Positions 16,850 through 22,049 of a stretch of 64,000 bases of DNA are shown piece by piece. This DNA is from Sandarakinorhabdus cyanobacteriorum. Lineage in GTDB: Bacteria > Pseudomonadota > Alphaproteobacteria > Sphingomonadales > Sphingomonadaceae. A model generated the notes under the pieces. The model was not told where the DNA came from. It saw only the letters and a list, made by a program, of their open reading frames with translations, and did not search any database. Each line of letters starts with the position of its first letter. Positions within the stretch are counted from its first letter, which is position 1. The stretch spans positions 1 through 64,000 of the forward strand of contig NZ_NOXT01000124.1 of assembly GCF_002251755.1 (NCBI RefSeq), in the 5' to 3' direction. Both the position numbers and the translations under genes were made by a program.

Positions 16850-17149
16850 TCAGTACCCGCTGATCAACATGTCCAGCGCATTGAGGATCGCAACATCATG
16901 TTGCGCCAACGAGCCCACGACGGGTCCACAATCGCGTAACTGCAGCACCGCAGCATATTGCGTGACCATCACATAGCGCGCGCCATCGATGTCAAATTCC
17001 GGATTAAGCCGACGTGCCGGAATTGGCGCACGCCCAGGTGGCTGCAAAGGCACGACAAAGCGCGTATTCAACCGATTCAGCAGGTCCGACTGGCAATCGA
17101 GCAGCAGACTGCCGTCGCCAACCCCGGCATAGACATCAAACCGTGCCAT
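16850..17149 (-). CDS. ccdB: CcdB family toxin
   Basis: A 99-residue toxin of the CcdB family, which poisons DNA gyrase. Family features are seen: N-terminal MARFDVYAG, LLLDCQSDLLNRLNTRFVVP, the mid-protein ARRLNPEFDIDGARYVM, and the C-terminal helix AILNALDMLISGY, which in CcdB carries the GyrA-contact residues; Trp-Gly-Ile of the F-plasmid toxin is replaced by Ser-Gly-Tyr. Its ATG overlaps the antitoxin stop (TGATG), the classic coupled arrangement. The chromosomal setting suggests a stabiliser or relic. Whether it is still toxic cannot be told from sequence. Confidence 0.85.
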   Translation of the reverse strand: MARFDVYAGVGDGSLLLDCQSDLLNRLNTRFVVPLQPPGRAPIPARRLNPEFDIDGARYVMVTQYAAVLQLRDCGPVVGSLAQHDVAILNALDMLISGY

Positions 17150-17385
17150 CAGAACTGGCGGAACCGCGCCAATGGCAAACCATTTGCCTCAACATAGGCG
17201 TTGGACGAGTCTATTGCCGCCTGGTTTTCCGCTAGCCAACGCTCGGCCCGCTGCTTCGATACCTGCTGGGCGATACCCTGCTCGCAGGCTTGTGACAGGT
17301 TGATGCCCAGTGCCCTGGCCTCTTCAACCAACGCCCGATCGAGTGACACATTGGTTGGCTTCCGCACCGTCACTGCCGTCGCCAT
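17149..17385 (-). CDS. ccdA: CcdA family antitoxin
   Basis: A 78-residue antitoxin. The N-terminal ribbon-helix-helix (VTVRKPTNVSLDRALVEEAR, then ALGINLSQACEQG) binds DNA, and the C-terminal acidic/aromatic tail (AERWLAENQAAIDSSNAYVE, then GLPLARFRQF) should wrap the toxin. The start was set at the Met preceded by GGAGG with 5-nt spacing; two earlier in-frame ATGs lie inside the operator-like repeat. It is first in the operon, as expected for antitoxin-led autoregulation. Confidence 0.87.
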   Translation of the reverse strand: MATAVTVRKPTNVSLDRALVEEARALGINLSQACEQGIAQQVSKQRAERWLAENQAAIDSSNAYVEANGLPLARFRQF

Positions 17386-17395
17386 CCAAGCCTCC

Positions 17396-17416
17396 ATGCG
17401 CATAATTCATGCGCAT
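17396..17416. promoter_or_regulatory. Candidate CcdA operator
   Basis: Two copies of the self-complementary octamer ATGCGCAT are separated by 5 bp, immediately upstream of the ccdA ribosome site. Ribbon-helix-helix antitoxins usually bind such paired short palindromes to repress their own operon. The site's sequence and position support that reading; binding is inferred. Confidence 0.55.
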
Positions 17417-17467
17417 CATATCGCACCGGACCAGCCGCGACAACCAGGGCCTCACCCAAACAAATGG

Positions 17468-17490
17468 GGGCAGGGACTGCGTCCCTGCCC
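17468..17490. terminator. Hairpin downstream of nrdB
   Basis: GGGCAGGGAC and GTCCCTGCCC form a perfect 10-bp stem with a 3-nt loop, 25 bp past the nrdB stop codon. On the minus strand it is followed by a T-rich but broken run (CCATTTGTTT). It probably ends the nrd transcript. Confidence 0.6.
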
Positions 17491-17514
17491 GCCGCAGGCC
17501 CCCTTCTTCCGTCC

Positions 17515-18567
17515 TTACTCCGCAGCCACCCCCAGCAGCCCGCCCTGGCGGTCATCCGTGTTGGCCGGCACGGCTTCGCTGGCGGCCTTGGCGGCCTTGC
17601 GGGCGTCGAAGGCAGACCAGACTTCGTTCCAGTCGCCCTTGGTGGCGGCCTTGGAATATTCGGTGGCGCGGGCTTCGAAGAAGTTGGCGTGTTCCACACC
17701 GTTGAGCAGCGGCGTCAGCCACGGCAGCGGGTGTTCGTCGATCATGTAGATCGGCTGCAGGCCAAGCTGCTTCAGGCGCCAATCGGCGATGAAGCGCACA
17801 TATTTCTTGATGTCCTTCGGCGTCATGCCCGACACCGGGCCCATTTCGAAGGCCAGATCGATGAACGCGTCTTCCAGGCGCACGGTGCGCTGGCACACAT
17901 CGGCGATGTCGTCGCGGATGCGGTTGGTCAGCACCCCGGTTTCGGCGCAGAACGTGTGGAACAGCTTGATGATGCCTTCGCAGTGCAGCGATTCATCGCG
18001 GACGGACCAGGAGACGATCTGCCCCATGCCCTTCATCTTGTTGAAGCGCGGGAAGTTCATCAGCATGGCGAACGAGGCGAACAGCTGCAGCCCTTCGGTG
18101 AAGCCGCCGAACATCGCCAGCGTCTTGGCGATATCCTCGTTGGAGGAAACGCCAAACGTGTTCATATAATCATGCTTGTCGCGCATCTCCTTGTAATTCA
18201 GGAACGCGCTATACTCGCTTTCGGGCATCCCGATCGTGTCGAGCAGGTGGCTGTAGGCCGCGATGTGGATCGTCTCCATGTTGGAGAACGAGGTCAGCAT
18301 CATCTTCACTTCGGTCGGCTTGAACACGCTGCCATATTTGTCGTGATAGCAATCCTGCACCTCGACATCGGCCTGGGTGAAGAAGCGGAAGATCTGGGTG
18401 AGCAGGTTGCGCTCGTGATCGGTCAGCTTCTGGGCCCAGTCACGGCAATCCTCGCCCAGCGGCACTTCCTCCGGCATCCAGTGGATCTGCTGCTGGCGCT
18501 TCCAGAAATCATAAGCCCAGGGATATTCGAACGGCTTGTAGCTCTTGGAGGCTTGAAGGAGCGGCAT
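17515..18567 (-). CDS. nrdB: Ribonucleotide reductase class Ia, beta subunit
   Basis: The radical-generating subunit of aerobic ribonucleotide reductase, 350 residues. Di-iron ligands are visible: D67, E98 and H101 in METIHIAAY, E158, and E192/H195 in RDESLH. Y105, four residues after H101, is the expected tyrosyl-radical residue, which supports class Ia rather than the Tyr-less Ic type. No ATP-cone is fused to its N-terminus. It lies downstream of nrdA on the same strand but separated from it by a small unrelated AT-rich gene. The acidic C-terminus normally docks in the alpha subunit. Confidence 0.95.
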   Translation of the reverse strand: MPLLQASKSYKPFEYPWAYDFWKRQQQIHWMPEEVPLGEDCRDWAQKLTDHERNLLTQIFRFFTQADVEVQDCYHDKYGSVFKPTEVKMMLTSFSNMETIHIAAYSHLLDTIGMPESEYSAFLNYKEMRDKHDYMNTFGVSSNEDIAKTLAMFGGFTEGLQLFASFAMLMNFPRFNKMKGMGQIVSWSVRDESLHCEGIIKLFHTFCAETGVLTNRIRDDIADVCQRTVRLEDAFIDLAFEMGPVSGMTPKDIKKYVRFIADWRLKQLGLQPIYMIDEHPLPWLTPLLNGVEHANFFEARATEYSKAATKGDWNEVWSAFDARKAAKAASEAVPANTDDRQGGLLGVAAE

Positions 18568-18594
18568 AAATTTTTTCCTACCCGTTGAATTTGT

Positions 18595-18987
18595 TCAGGC
18601 AAACACTGGATTCAGAATATCAAAGTATTCTTTTGCCAACTTCTCTGCTGCCGATTTCGATATTCCGCTGACGTAACCAACATCTAATTTTACATGCCAG
18701 TTCAGTCGTTTCCTCTCTGAATCGGAAATGGAATTAATTTTTTCTATCATGCTGTCTAAAATTTCATCTTGGCTATCTTCTAAACGAATTCTGAATTTTT
18801 CGTGATCTTGAATGATGCAATCCCATTCAACTTTCCAATAGCGCTTTTCACTTCGAACAACCAACATTGGCTTTCTCAGCTTAGCGCAAGACATGAAGTA
18901 GGCATTTACTGCATGAAAGGTATTGCCTTCAACCAACAGATAATTCTTCTGCGTCGAGGCAGCATTGGAAGCTTTATTCGCATTCAT
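18595..18987 (-). CDS. AT-rich gene of unknown function between nrdA and nrdB
   Basis: A 130-residue protein I do not recognise. It starts MNANKASNAASTQKNYLLVE behind a good ribosome site (GAAGAGG). It is rich in Lys, Asn, Ile and Ser, with aromatic patches (KRYWKVEWDCIIQDHEKFRI) and a helical acidic segment (SQDEILDSMIEKINSISDSE). No signal peptide or membrane helix is seen. Base and codon use differ sharply from the GC-rich neighbours (AAT, ATT, AAA and TTA/TCT codons are common), the mark of recent transfer. It sits exactly in the nrdA-nrdB junction, co-oriented, with two strong hairpins on its nrdA side. It resembles neither an intein nor a known homing endonuclease. Confidence 0.75.
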   Translation of the reverse strand: MNANKASNAASTQKNYLLVEGNTFHAVNAYFMSCAKLRKPMLVVRSEKRYWKVEWDCIIQDHEKFRIRLEDSQDEILDSMIEKINSISDSERKRLNWHVKLDVGYVSGISKSAAEKLAKEYFDILNPVFA

Positions 18988-19017
18988 TACACTAACCTCT
19001 TCCAATGCCGATTGGGA

Positions 19018-19092
19018 GGGGGATTGGGCAATGGGTCGTGGAGTCCATGGCCCAATCCCCCTGTCCCTCCGGCCGGGCAGCATCCCGGCCGG
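19018..19092. repeat. Two adjacent strong hairpins between nrdA and the AT-rich gene
   Basis: The first has perfect 12-bp arms (GGGGGATTGGGC at 19018 and GCCCAATCCCCC at 19050) around a 20-nt loop. The second is CCGGCCGGG at 19069 with CCCGGCCGG at 19084, loop CAGCAT. Neither is followed by a T-run on the minus strand. They could attenuate or process the nrd transcript, or mark the edge of inserted DNA. Confidence 0.6.
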
Positions 19093-19137
19093 TGCGCTGC
19101 CCGGCGGGATGGCCGGGCAAGGCGGCGCCGCCTGCCG

Positions 19138-21087
19138 TCACTGGCAGGCCAGGCATTCGTCATAATCGCGGCGTTCCACCTGGATCACCGGGGCTTCCGC
19201 CGTGTTGTCGGCCTCCACCCCGCCGGCAAAGCCAGCGCGCTGCACGCTCATGGAGCGCAGATAGTAAAGCGATTTGATGCCCAGCTCCCAGGCACGATAA
19301 TGGAGCATGAGCAGATCCCACTTCTCCACATCGGCCGGGATGAACAGGTTGAGGCTCTGCGCCTGGTCGATATAGGGCGTGCGGTCCGCCGCCAGCTCGA
19401 CCAGCCAGCGCTGATCAATCTCGAACGCGGTGCGATAGGTGGCCTTTTCCTCCGGCGTCAGAAACTCCAGATGCTGCACCGAACCGCCGCGCTCCAGGAT
19501 GGAGTTCCACACCGCGTCGCTGTTTTTCGCCTTGGAAATCAGCAGCTTTTCCAGATAGGGGTTCTTCACCACAAAGCTGCCCGACAGCGTCTTGTGGGTA
19601 TAGACATTGGCCGGGATCGGCTCGACACAGGCCGACGTGCCGCCGCAGATGATCGAGATGCTGGCCGTCGGCGCGATCGCCATCTTGCAGCTGAACCGCT
19701 CCATCACGCCCATGTCGGCCGCATCCGGGCACGGGCCGCGCTCGGCCGCCAGCGTCATCGACGCCTGGTCCACCTGGGCGCGGATATGCTTGAAGATGCG
19801 CATGTTCCAGCTCTTGGCCATGGCGCTTTCAAACGGGATGCCGCGCGCCTGGAAGAAACTGTGCAGGCCCATCACGCCCAGGCCCACCGACCGCTCGCGC
19901 ATCGCGGCATAGGCGGCGCGGTGCATCGCCGGCTCGGCCCGGTCGATATAATCCTGCAGCACATTGTCGAGGAAGCGCATGCAATCCTCGATGAACTGCG
20001 GGTGGCCGTTCCACTCGTCCCACGTCTCGATGTTCAGGCTCGACAGGCAGCAAACGGCGGTGCGGTCGTTGCCCAGATGGTCGGGCCCCGTCGGCAGGGT
20101 GATTTCCGAACAGAGGTTGGACGTCGACACCTTCAGCCCCAGATCGCGCTGGTGCTTGGGCATGGTGCGGTTCACCTCGTCGATGAAGATGATATAGGGC
20201 TCGCCGGTCGCCAGCCGGGTTTCGACCAGCTTGGTGAACAAGCCGCGCGCATCCACCTCGCCGCGCTTCTCGCCGGTCTTGGGGCTGACCAGGTCAAACT
20301 TGGTGCCGTCGCGCACCGCTTCCATGAACTTGTCGGTCACCAGCACGCCGTGGTGCAGGTTCAGCGCCTTGCGGTTGAAATCGCCCGACGGCTTGCGGAT
20401 TTCCAGAAACTCCTCGATCTCCGGGTGCGAGATGTCGAGATAGCAGGCCGCCGAGCCGCGGCGCAGCGAGCCCTGGCTGATCGCCAGCGTCAGGCTGTCC
20501 ATCACCCGCACGAACGGGATGATGCCGCTGGTCTTGCCATTCAGGCCCACCGGCTCGCCAATGCCGCGCACCCGGCCCCAATAGGTGCCGATGCCGCCCC
20601 CGCGCGAGGCGAGCCACACATTCTCGTTCCAGGTGCCGACAATGCCCTCCAGGCTGTCCGACACGCTGTTCAGATAGCAGCTGATCGGCAGGCCGCGGCC
20701 GGTGCCGCCGTTGGAGAGCACCGGAGTCGCCGGCATGAACCACAGCTTCGACACATAGTCATAGATGCGCTGGGCATGATCGGCATCATCGGCATAGGCC
20801 GCCGCCACGCGCGCAAACAGATCCTGATAGGATTCGCCCGGCAGCAGATAGCGGTCGTCCAGCGTGTCCTTGCCGAAATCGGTCAGCAGCGCATCGCGGC
20901 TGCGATCGACCGTCACCGGGAACTTCCACGGCATGATTTCGCTGGTGCCGGGCCGCGACTGCGCCGCCGCAGCGGCAGCCGCTGCCAGCACGCCCTGGGC
21001 CAGGTTGGCCGCCAGCGCGTCGCCGCCCTCTTCAGTGCGCTCCGGGGTCAGAGTGGCGCTGCTGTCTGTCATTCGAAACTCGCTCAT
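19138..21087 (-). CDS. nrdA: Ribonucleotide reductase class Ia, alpha subunit
   Basis: The catalytic subunit, which reduces nucleoside diphosphates; 649 residues. Active-site residues align with the enterobacterial enzyme: C137 and C347 (or C346) as the redox pair, and N324-x-C326-x-E328 in SNLCSEI, where C326 carries the thiyl radical. The C-terminal shuttle pair is CLAC in DECLACQ at the very end. The first 50 residues are a low-complexity Ala-rich leader and no ATP-cone (about 90 residues in E. coli) is present, so dATP feedback through that domain is missing. Upstream DNA holds a cluster of three GANTC sites and CACAACTTGTG at 21221, a weak candidate NrdR box. Confidence 0.95.
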   Translation of the reverse strand: MSEFRMTDSSATLTPERTEEGGDALAANLAQGVLAAAAAAAAQSRPGTSEIMPWKFPVTVDRSRDALLTDFGKDTLDDRYLLPGESYQDLFARVAAAYADDADHAQRIYDYVSKLWFMPATPVLSNGGTGRGLPISCYLNSVSDSLEGIVGTWNENVWLASRGGGIGTYWGRVRGIGEPVGLNGKTSGIIPFVRVMDSLTLAISQGSLRRGSAACYLDISHPEIEEFLEIRKPSGDFNRKALNLHHGVLVTDKFMEAVRDGTKFDLVSPKTGEKRGEVDARGLFTKLVETRLATGEPYIIFIDEVNRTMPKHQRDLGLKVSTSNLCSEITLPTGPDHLGNDRTAVCCLSSLNIETWDEWNGHPQFIEDCMRFLDNVLQDYIDRAEPAMHRAAYAAMRERSVGLGVMGLHSFFQARGIPFESAMAKSWNMRIFKHIRAQVDQASMTLAAERGPCPDAADMGVMERFSCKMAIAPTASISIICGGTSACVEPIPANVYTHKTLSGSFVVKNPYLEKLLISKAKNSDAVWNSILERGGSVQHLEFLTPEEKATYRTAFEIDQRWLVELAADRTPYIDQAQSLNLFIPADVEKWDLLMLHYRAWELGIKSLYYLRSMSVQRAGFAGGVEADNTAEAPVIQVERRDYDECLACQ

Positions 21088-21279
21088 GTCTTTTTTCGCC
21101 CCTCAATCATAGGAGGGGAACAAACCGGGGTCACGTCTCTTTGTTGCCGCAGCAACATTTGTCCCCGATATACACAGCAACCCCGCCCGGCTGCTGTTCT
21201 GTCCCCCGCCCCGCAACCACCACAACTTGTGTCTGATGGTCGCCGAAACACCATCAATAGTGCCACAGCCGAGTCACGA

Positions 21280-21342
21280 CGCAAGTCCATTGTTTGCTTG
21301 ACGTGCCCCGAAATGGTTGAATCGGCGGCGATTCATCCACAG
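21280..21342. repeat. 63-bp direct repeat, left copy
   Basis: This matches the right copy (from 21987) at 59 of 63 positions in the same orientation. It contains TTGACGTGCCCCGAAATGGT and the small palindrome GAATCG-GCGG-CGATTC, whose arms are two GANTC sites; a third GANTC (GAGTC) is at 21271. It lies about 190 bp upstream of nrdA. Confidence 0.9.
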
Positions 21343-21501
21343 GCCGCGGGCCCGTCCTTGGCCAATCAAGGGCTTGCCGGCAAAGAGTGACTTGTGATGG
21401 CAGGTACGGGGAATTTTTGGCGGAGCGCCGTCTTCATCGAGGCCGCATGCACACGCAAAAGTCGAAGGACTTTGCCCAACCTGACCTGCAGGTACGCCTT
21501 C

Positions 21502-21550
21502 AAAAAACCAATGGCGGCCAGCCAAACCGGAGGTGATCCGGCTGGCCGCC
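21502..21550 (-). terminator. Rho-independent terminator of the small HTH gene
   Basis: On the minus strand, GGCGGCCAGCC pairs perfectly with GGCTGGCCGCC (11 bp) across a 16-nt loop, then ATTGGTTTTTTG. It begins 17 bp past the stop codon of the small HTH gene. Confidence 0.85.
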
Positions 21551-21567
21551 CTCGGTATATGTCTATA

Positions 21568-21756
21568 CTACAGAGGCAACTGCTGCTGCACTCCGACACC
21601 ACGCTTGCCTGTGTTGATCTCAGACACACGCCCTTGATTCCAGCCGAGTTCGGCTGCGATCACGTGTTGAAACCAACCCTCCGCCAGCCGACGACGGACA
21701 TAGAGGACGATCTCGTCGGTGAAGGGGGCTGGATTTTCCGGATTGAACTTAAACAT
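21568..21756 (-). CDS. Small helix-turn-helix protein
   Basis: A 62-residue protein. FTDEIVLYVRRRLAEGWFQ and HVIAAELGWNQGRVSEINTG form a recognisable HTH (helix, AAELG turn, recognition helix NQGRVSEIN), similar to Xre and ParB-type motifs. No effector domain is present. The ribosome site AAAGGAGCT is 6-7 nt before the ATG and lies inside a small hairpin (GCTCC-TAAA-GGAGC), which could limit translation. It has its own terminator and sits inside the interval bounded by the 63-bp repeats. It probably binds the large inverted repeat just upstream. Its biological role is unknown. Confidence 0.72.
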   Translation of the reverse strand: MFKFNPENPAPFTDEIVLYVRRRLAEGWFQHVIAAELGWNQGRVSEINTGKRGVGVQQQLPL

Positions 21757-21785
21757 TGAGAGAGCTCCTTTAGGAGCCGGCTTGA

Positions 21786-21832
21786 CGTCAATCGGTCAGC
21801 GTGCGCATTGTGCGCAGGCCGACCGATTGACG
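21786..21832. repeat. Large inverted repeat upstream of the small HTH gene
   Basis: CGTCAATCGGTC (21786) and GACCGATTGACG (21821) are perfect 12-bp arms. The 23-nt interior holds TGCGCA-TTG-TGCGCA, an inner stem. It could be a dimeric operator for the HTH protein or the 5-prime structure of an RNA read to the right. Confidence 0.75.
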
Positions 21833-21883
21833 ATCACGCGTGCCGGACGTGAAACTGCCGCGTGAAATTCAGAGGCCCGGTTG

Positions 21884-21914
21884 AAGGCAGCCCGCGCCAA
21901 CGGGCTGCCTTTTT
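21884..21914 (+). terminator. Rho-independent terminator facing right
   Basis: AAGGCAGCCCG, a 6-nt loop CGCCAA, and CGGGCTGCCTT form an 11-bp stem followed by TTTTTCCTTTT on the plus strand. No plus-strand protein gene precedes it, so it may end a small RNA starting near the large inverted repeat. Promoter elements for that RNA are not clear. Confidence 0.8.
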
Positions 21915-21986
21915 CCTTTTGACCAGCGCAAAGTGTTGCTGGCGGGCTCCGAACTCGCGGTTAATATTTACGTCACCAGATTCCAG

Positions 21987-22049
21987 CGCAAGTCCATTGT
22001 TCGCTTGACGTGCCCCGAAATGGTCGAATCAGCGACGATTCATCCACAG
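21987..22049. repeat. 63-bp direct repeat, right copy
   Basis: Same orientation as the left copy, with four substitutions. It likewise carries GAATC and GATTC, with another GATTC at 21979. It ends about 165 bp before the fumarase gene. The remaining intergenic DNA on either side of the cassette shows no further gene. Confidence 0.9.

Follow-up and report, generated by a model that had tools for sequence, protein, structure and literature searches.

DHHA1 domains bind nucleic acids or nucleotides and carry a glycine-rich GGGH loop. Intrinsic terminators and mRNA-stabilising hairpins have a strong GC-rich stem that follows a coding region, and in T4-like phages homing and other mobile DNA occurs in nrd regions. 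The homing endonucleases and other mobile DNA of these phages are the subject of an article in Virol J (2010, 7:290, PMC2988022). Here we compare with these systems a small gene, termed gene X, that lies between nrdA and nrdB of Sandarakinorhabdus cyanobacteriorum, and a hairpin that stands in front of it. Gene X resembles the mobile DNA of T4-like phages in being a foreign gene in an nrd region. It differs from their homing DNA in that it occupies the spacer, matches no nuclease family and has relatives that are mostly proteins of plasmids or conjugative elements; no nuclease or intein domain was listed for it in Pfam, PHROGs or NCBIfam at E up to 10. Its predicted structure could be superposed on DHHA1 domains over about residues 11–130 by both Foldseek and VIA-align, but identity to DHHA1 proteins was 3–18% in the VIA-align rows, scores were weak, no profile matched, and gene X lacks both a DHH catalytic domain and the GGG motif, which occurs in none of 11 sequences (gene X and 10 aligned relatives). 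The hairpin shares the strong GC-rich stem after a coding region with terminators and stabilising elements, yet it has no direct T run, a conserved loop sequence and a set place behind nrdA. By sequence, gene X is most readily compared with two-domain proteins of plasmids and conjugative elements: it shares with their C-terminal domain the invariant positions C, P, W-D-x-I, G and A, whereas it is AT-rich, has no N-terminal domain and resides in a housekeeping operon.

An AT-rich gene between nrdA and nrdB

In the window, i.e., the whole stretch of 64,000 nucleotides that was analysed, three genes follow one another on the minus strand: nrdA, encoding the large chain of ribonucleotide reductase (21087–19138, 649 aa), gene X (18987–18595, 130 codons) and nrdB, encoding the small chain (18567–17515, 350 aa). 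A preliminary description of this DNA had reported a 130-residue gene of deviating base and codon usage between the two nrd genes and in the same orientation, preceded by a good ribosome site and with strong hairpins on one side. All of these features were recovered. The frame was intact and Pfam confirmed both nrd genes. GC content was 38.9% in gene X compared to 66.3% in the window, and GC at codon positions 1/2/3 was 0.44/0.32/0.41, as opposed to 0.57/0.38/0.86 for nrdB and 0.62/0.45/0.87 for nrdA, so that the third position alone contrasted 0.41 with 0.86–0.87. When 21,203 stretches of 393 bp were sampled over the 64 kb (step 3), those below 45% GC formed one cluster only, with starts at 18415–18694, over gene X. 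A GAGG motif on the minus strand (18996–18999), 8 nt 5′ of the ATG, is the likely ribosome-binding site of gene X; AGGA (18576–18579, minus strand) is found 8 nt 5′ of the nrdB ATG, and 27 bp separate the gene X stop from the nrdB start. The 201 nt from 18940 to 19140 folded with a z-score of –7.45, and none of 200 shuffles was equally stable.

Among 20,000 first-order Markov sequences simulated at the same composition, only 3 had no stop within 129 codons. Reading can be extended 5′ of the ATG up to 19083 (162 aa); since this added part is genus-conserved spacer, translation likely begins at the ATG at 18987. This codon is enclosed by a stem of 10 nt with full complementarity on the minus strand (18962–19008, arms 18962–18971 and 18999–19008), which also touches the ribosome site; it could limit translation of gene X or have arisen by chance. 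A consensus scan of 18500–19200 found no sigma-70-type promoter or terminator. Transcription together with ribonucleotide reductase, given as a must in the preliminary description, would follow from the layout. Judged by gene order, transcription would most likely start at the nrdAB promoter, and translation would proceed from the gene's own ribosome site.

Empty sites and insertion

The genus sample comprised 24 genomes, five of them below 95% completeness (lowest 75%). NrdB was matched in 22, and the nrdA–nrdB spacer was readable in 21 (unreadable in G307). Gene X was present in one of these 21 spacers, its own; the other 20 measured 122–716 bp with 63–73% GC. Likewise, when the 24 genus genomes were searched with the profile of the gene X protein family, the source genome alone matched; some of the 23 others are 75–81% complete. 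Because gene X is absent from the 20 other spacers and has no profile match in the 23 other genomes, it is probably a recent arrival in this bacterium. The spacer common to close relatives stops at CCCAATCG, and an AT-rich stretch with no counterpart in the genus (18568–19008, strand unassigned) starts directly after it; its right edge falls somewhere from the gene X stop to the nrdB start. A search of 18540–19060 revealed no duplication flanking the insertion. The comparison of spacers proposed in the preliminary description thus yielded 20 empty sites and a defined left edge.

In two of the 21 readable genomes (G300 and G313), the spacer holds a gene for a TonB C-terminal domain (L014, 2560–2880, minus strand; L029, 1199–1489, plus strand), assigned by Pfam TonB_C with E-values of 1.6e-15 and 1e-14. 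Both genes stand behind the same hairpin as gene X; the nrdA–nrdB slot has therefore housed other small genes. As a separate observation, the NrdB matches were split across frames in G167 (two pieces, L024/L027) and G308 (four pieces, L026 and L030–L032), which may reflect frameshifts or assembly errors.

An unnamed two-domain family

Searches of Pfam, PHROGs, NCBIfam, PADLOC and PDB sequences gave no match above chance for gene X. The Pfam scan at E up to 10 returned two non-DHHA1 families at 0.11 and 0.14, and the weak Pfam, PHROG, NCBIfam and PDB sequence matches, all confined to single stretches with E of 0.046 or worse, were rejected. To this extent the earlier statement that no family is recognised held for Pfam, PHROGs, NCBIfam and PADLOC; an unnamed homologous family was found nonetheless. 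Among 298 genomes of the bacterial family, three matched: the source genome itself and two others, both weakly (E about 1e-4). The two non-self proteins (218 and 253 residues) are full-length, located elsewhere than in the nrd spacer, and align with gene X through their C-terminal halves. BLASTP against these first two relatives was good in one case (E 3e-9) and poor for the G291 member (E 0.029). Plasmid records contributed five more members covering most of the query, from Sphingomonas (WP_020997454.1 on pCADAB1), Sphingopyxis, Blastomonas (WP_069052174.1 on pBSY18_1) and, twice, Azospirillum. Profile searches added G677 from 398 phylum genomes (E 2.8e-9) and G1261 and G1152 from 396 order genomes (E 4.7e-38 and 3.2e-32), while the copy in the window was the sole match in 385 class genomes. 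The family profile had no PDB sequence match. A Peptoclostridium match (L004) covering residues 92–128 with 43% identity, inside an unrelated-looking 293-aa frame, was rejected as chance.

The family is rare, and its full members are proteins of about 200–250 residues with two domains. Gene X (18595–18987, minus strand) is equivalent to the C-terminal one: alignment and profile searches both support the homology, identity to the relatives is 17–25%, and C34, P40, W55, D56, I58, G104 and A118 (gene X numbering) are invariant over the 11 aligned sequences. The N-terminal domain, with its SAHxSEAxAAxxGFR region, is missing from gene X, and the DNA upstream is genus-conserved spacer. Counted up to the column of gene X residue 14 (alignment A3), 75–96 residues precede the shared domain in all 10 relatives, compared to 13 in gene X. 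This N-terminal domain had no Pfam match in the members scanned. Partial matches to it were numerous on plasmids, among them those of Rhizobium and Bradyrhizobium, and by sequence it seems to pair with other C-terminal parts too. L038 (3040–3975), which shares only this domain, was excluded from the family alignments.

Five of the 10 relatives are on plasmid records, four lie beside conjugation genes and one (G291) does neither; gene X itself is found between nrdA and nrdB. ArdC, a transglycosylase and a relaxase with DUF3363 are encoded near the G1261 member, and ParB, DUF736 and again a relaxase with DUF3363 near the G1152 member. The G175 member precedes a T2SSE ATPase (TrbB-like on reading) and a CagE_TrbE_VirB protein; the neighbourhood of the G677 member includes a relaxase, a coupling protein and also a transglycosylase. 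On the plasmid records, the Sphingopyxis and Blastomonas members are one or two small genes away from mobF, and the Sphingomonas plasmid was typed as conjugative. No transfer genes were seen in the 8.6-kb stretch of each of the two Azospirillum members. The G291 member has guaA on one side and an endonuclease III-like gene on the other; no transfer gene was recognised in 17 kb around it (two neighbours were scanned with Pfam). None of the surroundings read contained an nrd gene beside a relative. The foreign origin claimed for gene X was thus upheld by composition, by its absence from the 20 other spacers, by the lack of a profile match in the 23 other genus genomes, and by relatives that are mostly plasmid or conjugative-element proteins.

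Predicted structure of the gene X product

Structures were predicted with AlphaFold2 from an alignment of 6 of the 11 sequences. The gene X model reached a pLDDT of 82.1 and a pTM of 0.76, with residues 1–12 below 50; a full-length relative reached 87.0 and 0.84. In the model, gene X would form one whole domain with a clean boundary from about residue 13. A Foldseek search of the PDB with gene X returned archaeal RecJ rows first (E 4.7e-3 and up), the C-Ala domain of alanyl-tRNA synthetase among the top ten, and NrnA in 20th place. With VIA-align, PAP phosphatase ranked first (Z 6.6, rmsd 3.9, 98 aligned), followed by RecJ-type and NrN rows at about 6. The model of the relative gave a concordant picture: RecJ-type rows led in Foldseek (best E 8.3e-4) and PAP phosphatase in VIA-align (Z 7.0, rmsd 3.8, 92 aligned). 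RecJ, NrnA, PAP phosphatase and C-Ala all contain DHHA1 domains.

The best Z-scores of 6.6 and 7.0 fall within the background quoted for VIA-align (7–8), and unrelated folds scored nearly as high, among them biotin ligase and a designed protein (both 5.8) and aspartate kinase (5.6) for gene X, and the archaeal protein 3ueb (6.3) and a mitoribosomal chain (6.1) for the relative. The DHHA1 Pfam profile matched neither gene X (E up to 10) nor the relatives scanned, and a viral structure library gave no match below E 1e-3. We therefore treat the DHHA1 likeness of the model, which is weak, as a lead rather than as membership. The structural and profile searches suggested in the preliminary description have delivered one whole domain and an unnamed family, along with fold matches that are weak.

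A conserved hairpin behind nrdA

Between nrdA and the AT-rich stretch lies a 56-nt hairpin on the minus strand (19012–19067) with up to 21 pairs and a 10-nt loop containing TCCACGAC. Two further GC-rich hairpins (19098–19119 and 19069–19092, within 19069–19119, minus strand) were seen in the fold between nrdA and this element. The 56-nt hairpin was ungapped in 20 of the 21 readable genus spacers and absent in G314. The 20 genus rows (alignment A8) came from a locus search in which CCACGA had to precede a C-rich arm. Part of the TCCACGAC loop word is therefore constant by construction in them; the word alone is unremarkable, with three occurrences in the window and 1.4 expected. Bases paired in 92.6% of A8 cells, compared to 48–55% when partners were slid by 1–3 columns. 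The covariation score of 0.341 (shuffled mean 0.127) and the 51 cells changed on both sides (17.1 in shuffles) were each reached in none of 500 shuffles. Two other measures were not above shuffles: pairs changed on both sides numbered 8 of 21, which 85 of 500 shuffles attained (mean 6.5), and further pair types numbered 18, attained by 239 of 500 (mean 17.4). When seven genomes of three other genera were added to the 20 genus rows (alignment A10, 27 rows, fitted to the structure), 13 of 21 pairs were changed on both sides, which 3 of 500 shuffles reached, while the 30 further pair types were not clearly above shuffles (mean 26.9, 57 of 500). On the nrd strand there were 32 G–U pairs versus 16 A–C mismatches, 11 of the latter at one pair; this excess points mildly to an RNA of the nrd strand rather than to a DNA cruciform. 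Rfam gave no match to the hairpin within 17000–22000, the only three matches in that range being sub-threshold (E 0.43–0.91).

A model built from the hairpin (R1) matched 17 of 199 bacterial-family genomes at E 0.1. In 11 of the 17, the best match lay between nrdA and nrdB and had the TCCACGAC loop; the other six were GC-rich hairpins elsewhere. These six (G001, G006, G031, G100, G176 and G192) and a further match in G003 had no nrd match on their loci and were rejected, and TCCACGAC was absent from the matched stretches examined of the non-nrd matches. A cut-off of 3.6e-6, chosen so as to remove 8 antisense rows, left 27 of the 35 R1 matches that had been aligned at first; this choice, like the word search behind A8, favours the hairpin. 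A second model (R2) recovered the hairpin in each of the three other genera, in 5 of 6, 2 of 2 and 2 of 3 genomes (9/11). In G267 and G1303, which were outside the set used to build R2, it had the same loop and again lay between nrdA and nrdB. Under stricter filters, R2 matched 4 of 176 order genomes, three with the element and from genera already known; a weak match in G1144 was rejected, its locus having no nrd match. In total, the hairpin was found in 29 genomes of four genera (the A10 rows plus L073 and L074), always between nrdA and nrdB.

In 21 of 27 spacers its 5′ end lies 57–79 nt past the stop of nrdA, and 92–224 nt past it in the remaining 6, while the distance to nrdB varies from about 43 to 443 nt. 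Because the former range is narrow and the latter wide, the hairpin is tied to nrdA. A run of four T directly after the stem was seen in none of 27 genomes; L008, L022 and L029 have four or more T 7–9 nt later. Among the papers listed by literature searches, no title or abstract opening described this hairpin or the gene X protein. We propose the hairpin as a candidate new cis-acting RNA, which may serve as a signal for stabilisation or processing and thereby set how much of each subunit is made. It lies outside the first claim of the preliminary description and is a more testable discovery than gene X.

Origin and role of gene X

Taken together, the data are best explained if gene X is a captured C-terminal domain of a conjugative-element protein, co-expressed with nrdAB as a passenger and probably binding nucleic acids or nucleotides, to which we assign a probability of about one half. 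The gene would have been acquired horizontally as only the C-terminal domain of a protein otherwise found mostly on plasmids and conjugative elements, and comparison places its entry site in a non-coding spacer, behind the conserved hairpin after nrdA. Its product, likely a working one as judged from the sequence, would probably be a small protein of DHHA1-like fold that binds nucleic acids or nucleotides, as the weak structure matches suggest; nucleic-acid binding is the likeliest activity in light of the model. Such a passenger would be expressed while dNTP synthesis is on, with no dedicated part in ribonucleotide reductase. Loss of the N-terminal domain may mean that gene X has lost its function. 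The main rival is a dying remnant, the truncated, non-functional tail of a two-domain gene that landed by illegitimate recombination and whose decay is yet to come. The 13 residues that stand in place of 75–96, the occurrence in one of 24 genus genomes and the stem enclosing the start codon would all fit such a fate. We nevertheless consider it somewhat unlikely, as gene X has an unbroken frame (equalled by 3 of 20,000 simulated sequences), its predicted domain is complete and cleanly bounded, and start and ribosome site stand directly before that domain.

A role selected at this site, for instance as anti-phage or anti-plasmid cargo or as a nucleotide-pool regulator that gains from co-expression with ribonucleotide reductase, would agree with the location inside nrdAB, with nucleotide or nucleic-acid binding as made plausible by the fold matches, and with the other small gene, encoding a TonB C-terminal domain, behind the same hairpin in 2 of 21 readable genus spacers. 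We regard it as improbable: PADLOC matched none of six members of the protein family, no phage record matched, no relative came from viral contigs in four pattern-based scans, and no nrd gene accompanied the relatives whose surroundings were read. The defence, phage or homing role that the preliminary description had raised likewise found no support. An ancient, native place of gene X in the nrd operon, with loss in relatives, is highly improbable. The shared orientation and the tight spacing to nrdB (27 bp) would suit this origin, but composition contrasts with nrdA, nrdB and the window, the 20 other spacers lack the gene, the 23 other genus genomes gave no match, and of 298 bacterial-family genomes only three match, its own included, the other two with full-length genes elsewhere. 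A wider proposal joins gene and hairpin, the latter as an undescribed cis-acting RNA setting the expression of both subunits in a group of related genera, and gene X as a nucleic-acid-binding domain of a conjugative element that came to rest directly behind it and is controlled by, or acts on, that RNA. We view this combination as improbable.

Under the captured-domain reading, one domain from a protein of plasmids or conjugative elements can stay in an essential operon and would be expressed with it. The covarying RNA structure tied to nrdA would, if true, offer a new and directly testable way into the balance that bacteria keep between the two subunits of the enzyme that makes DNA precursors.
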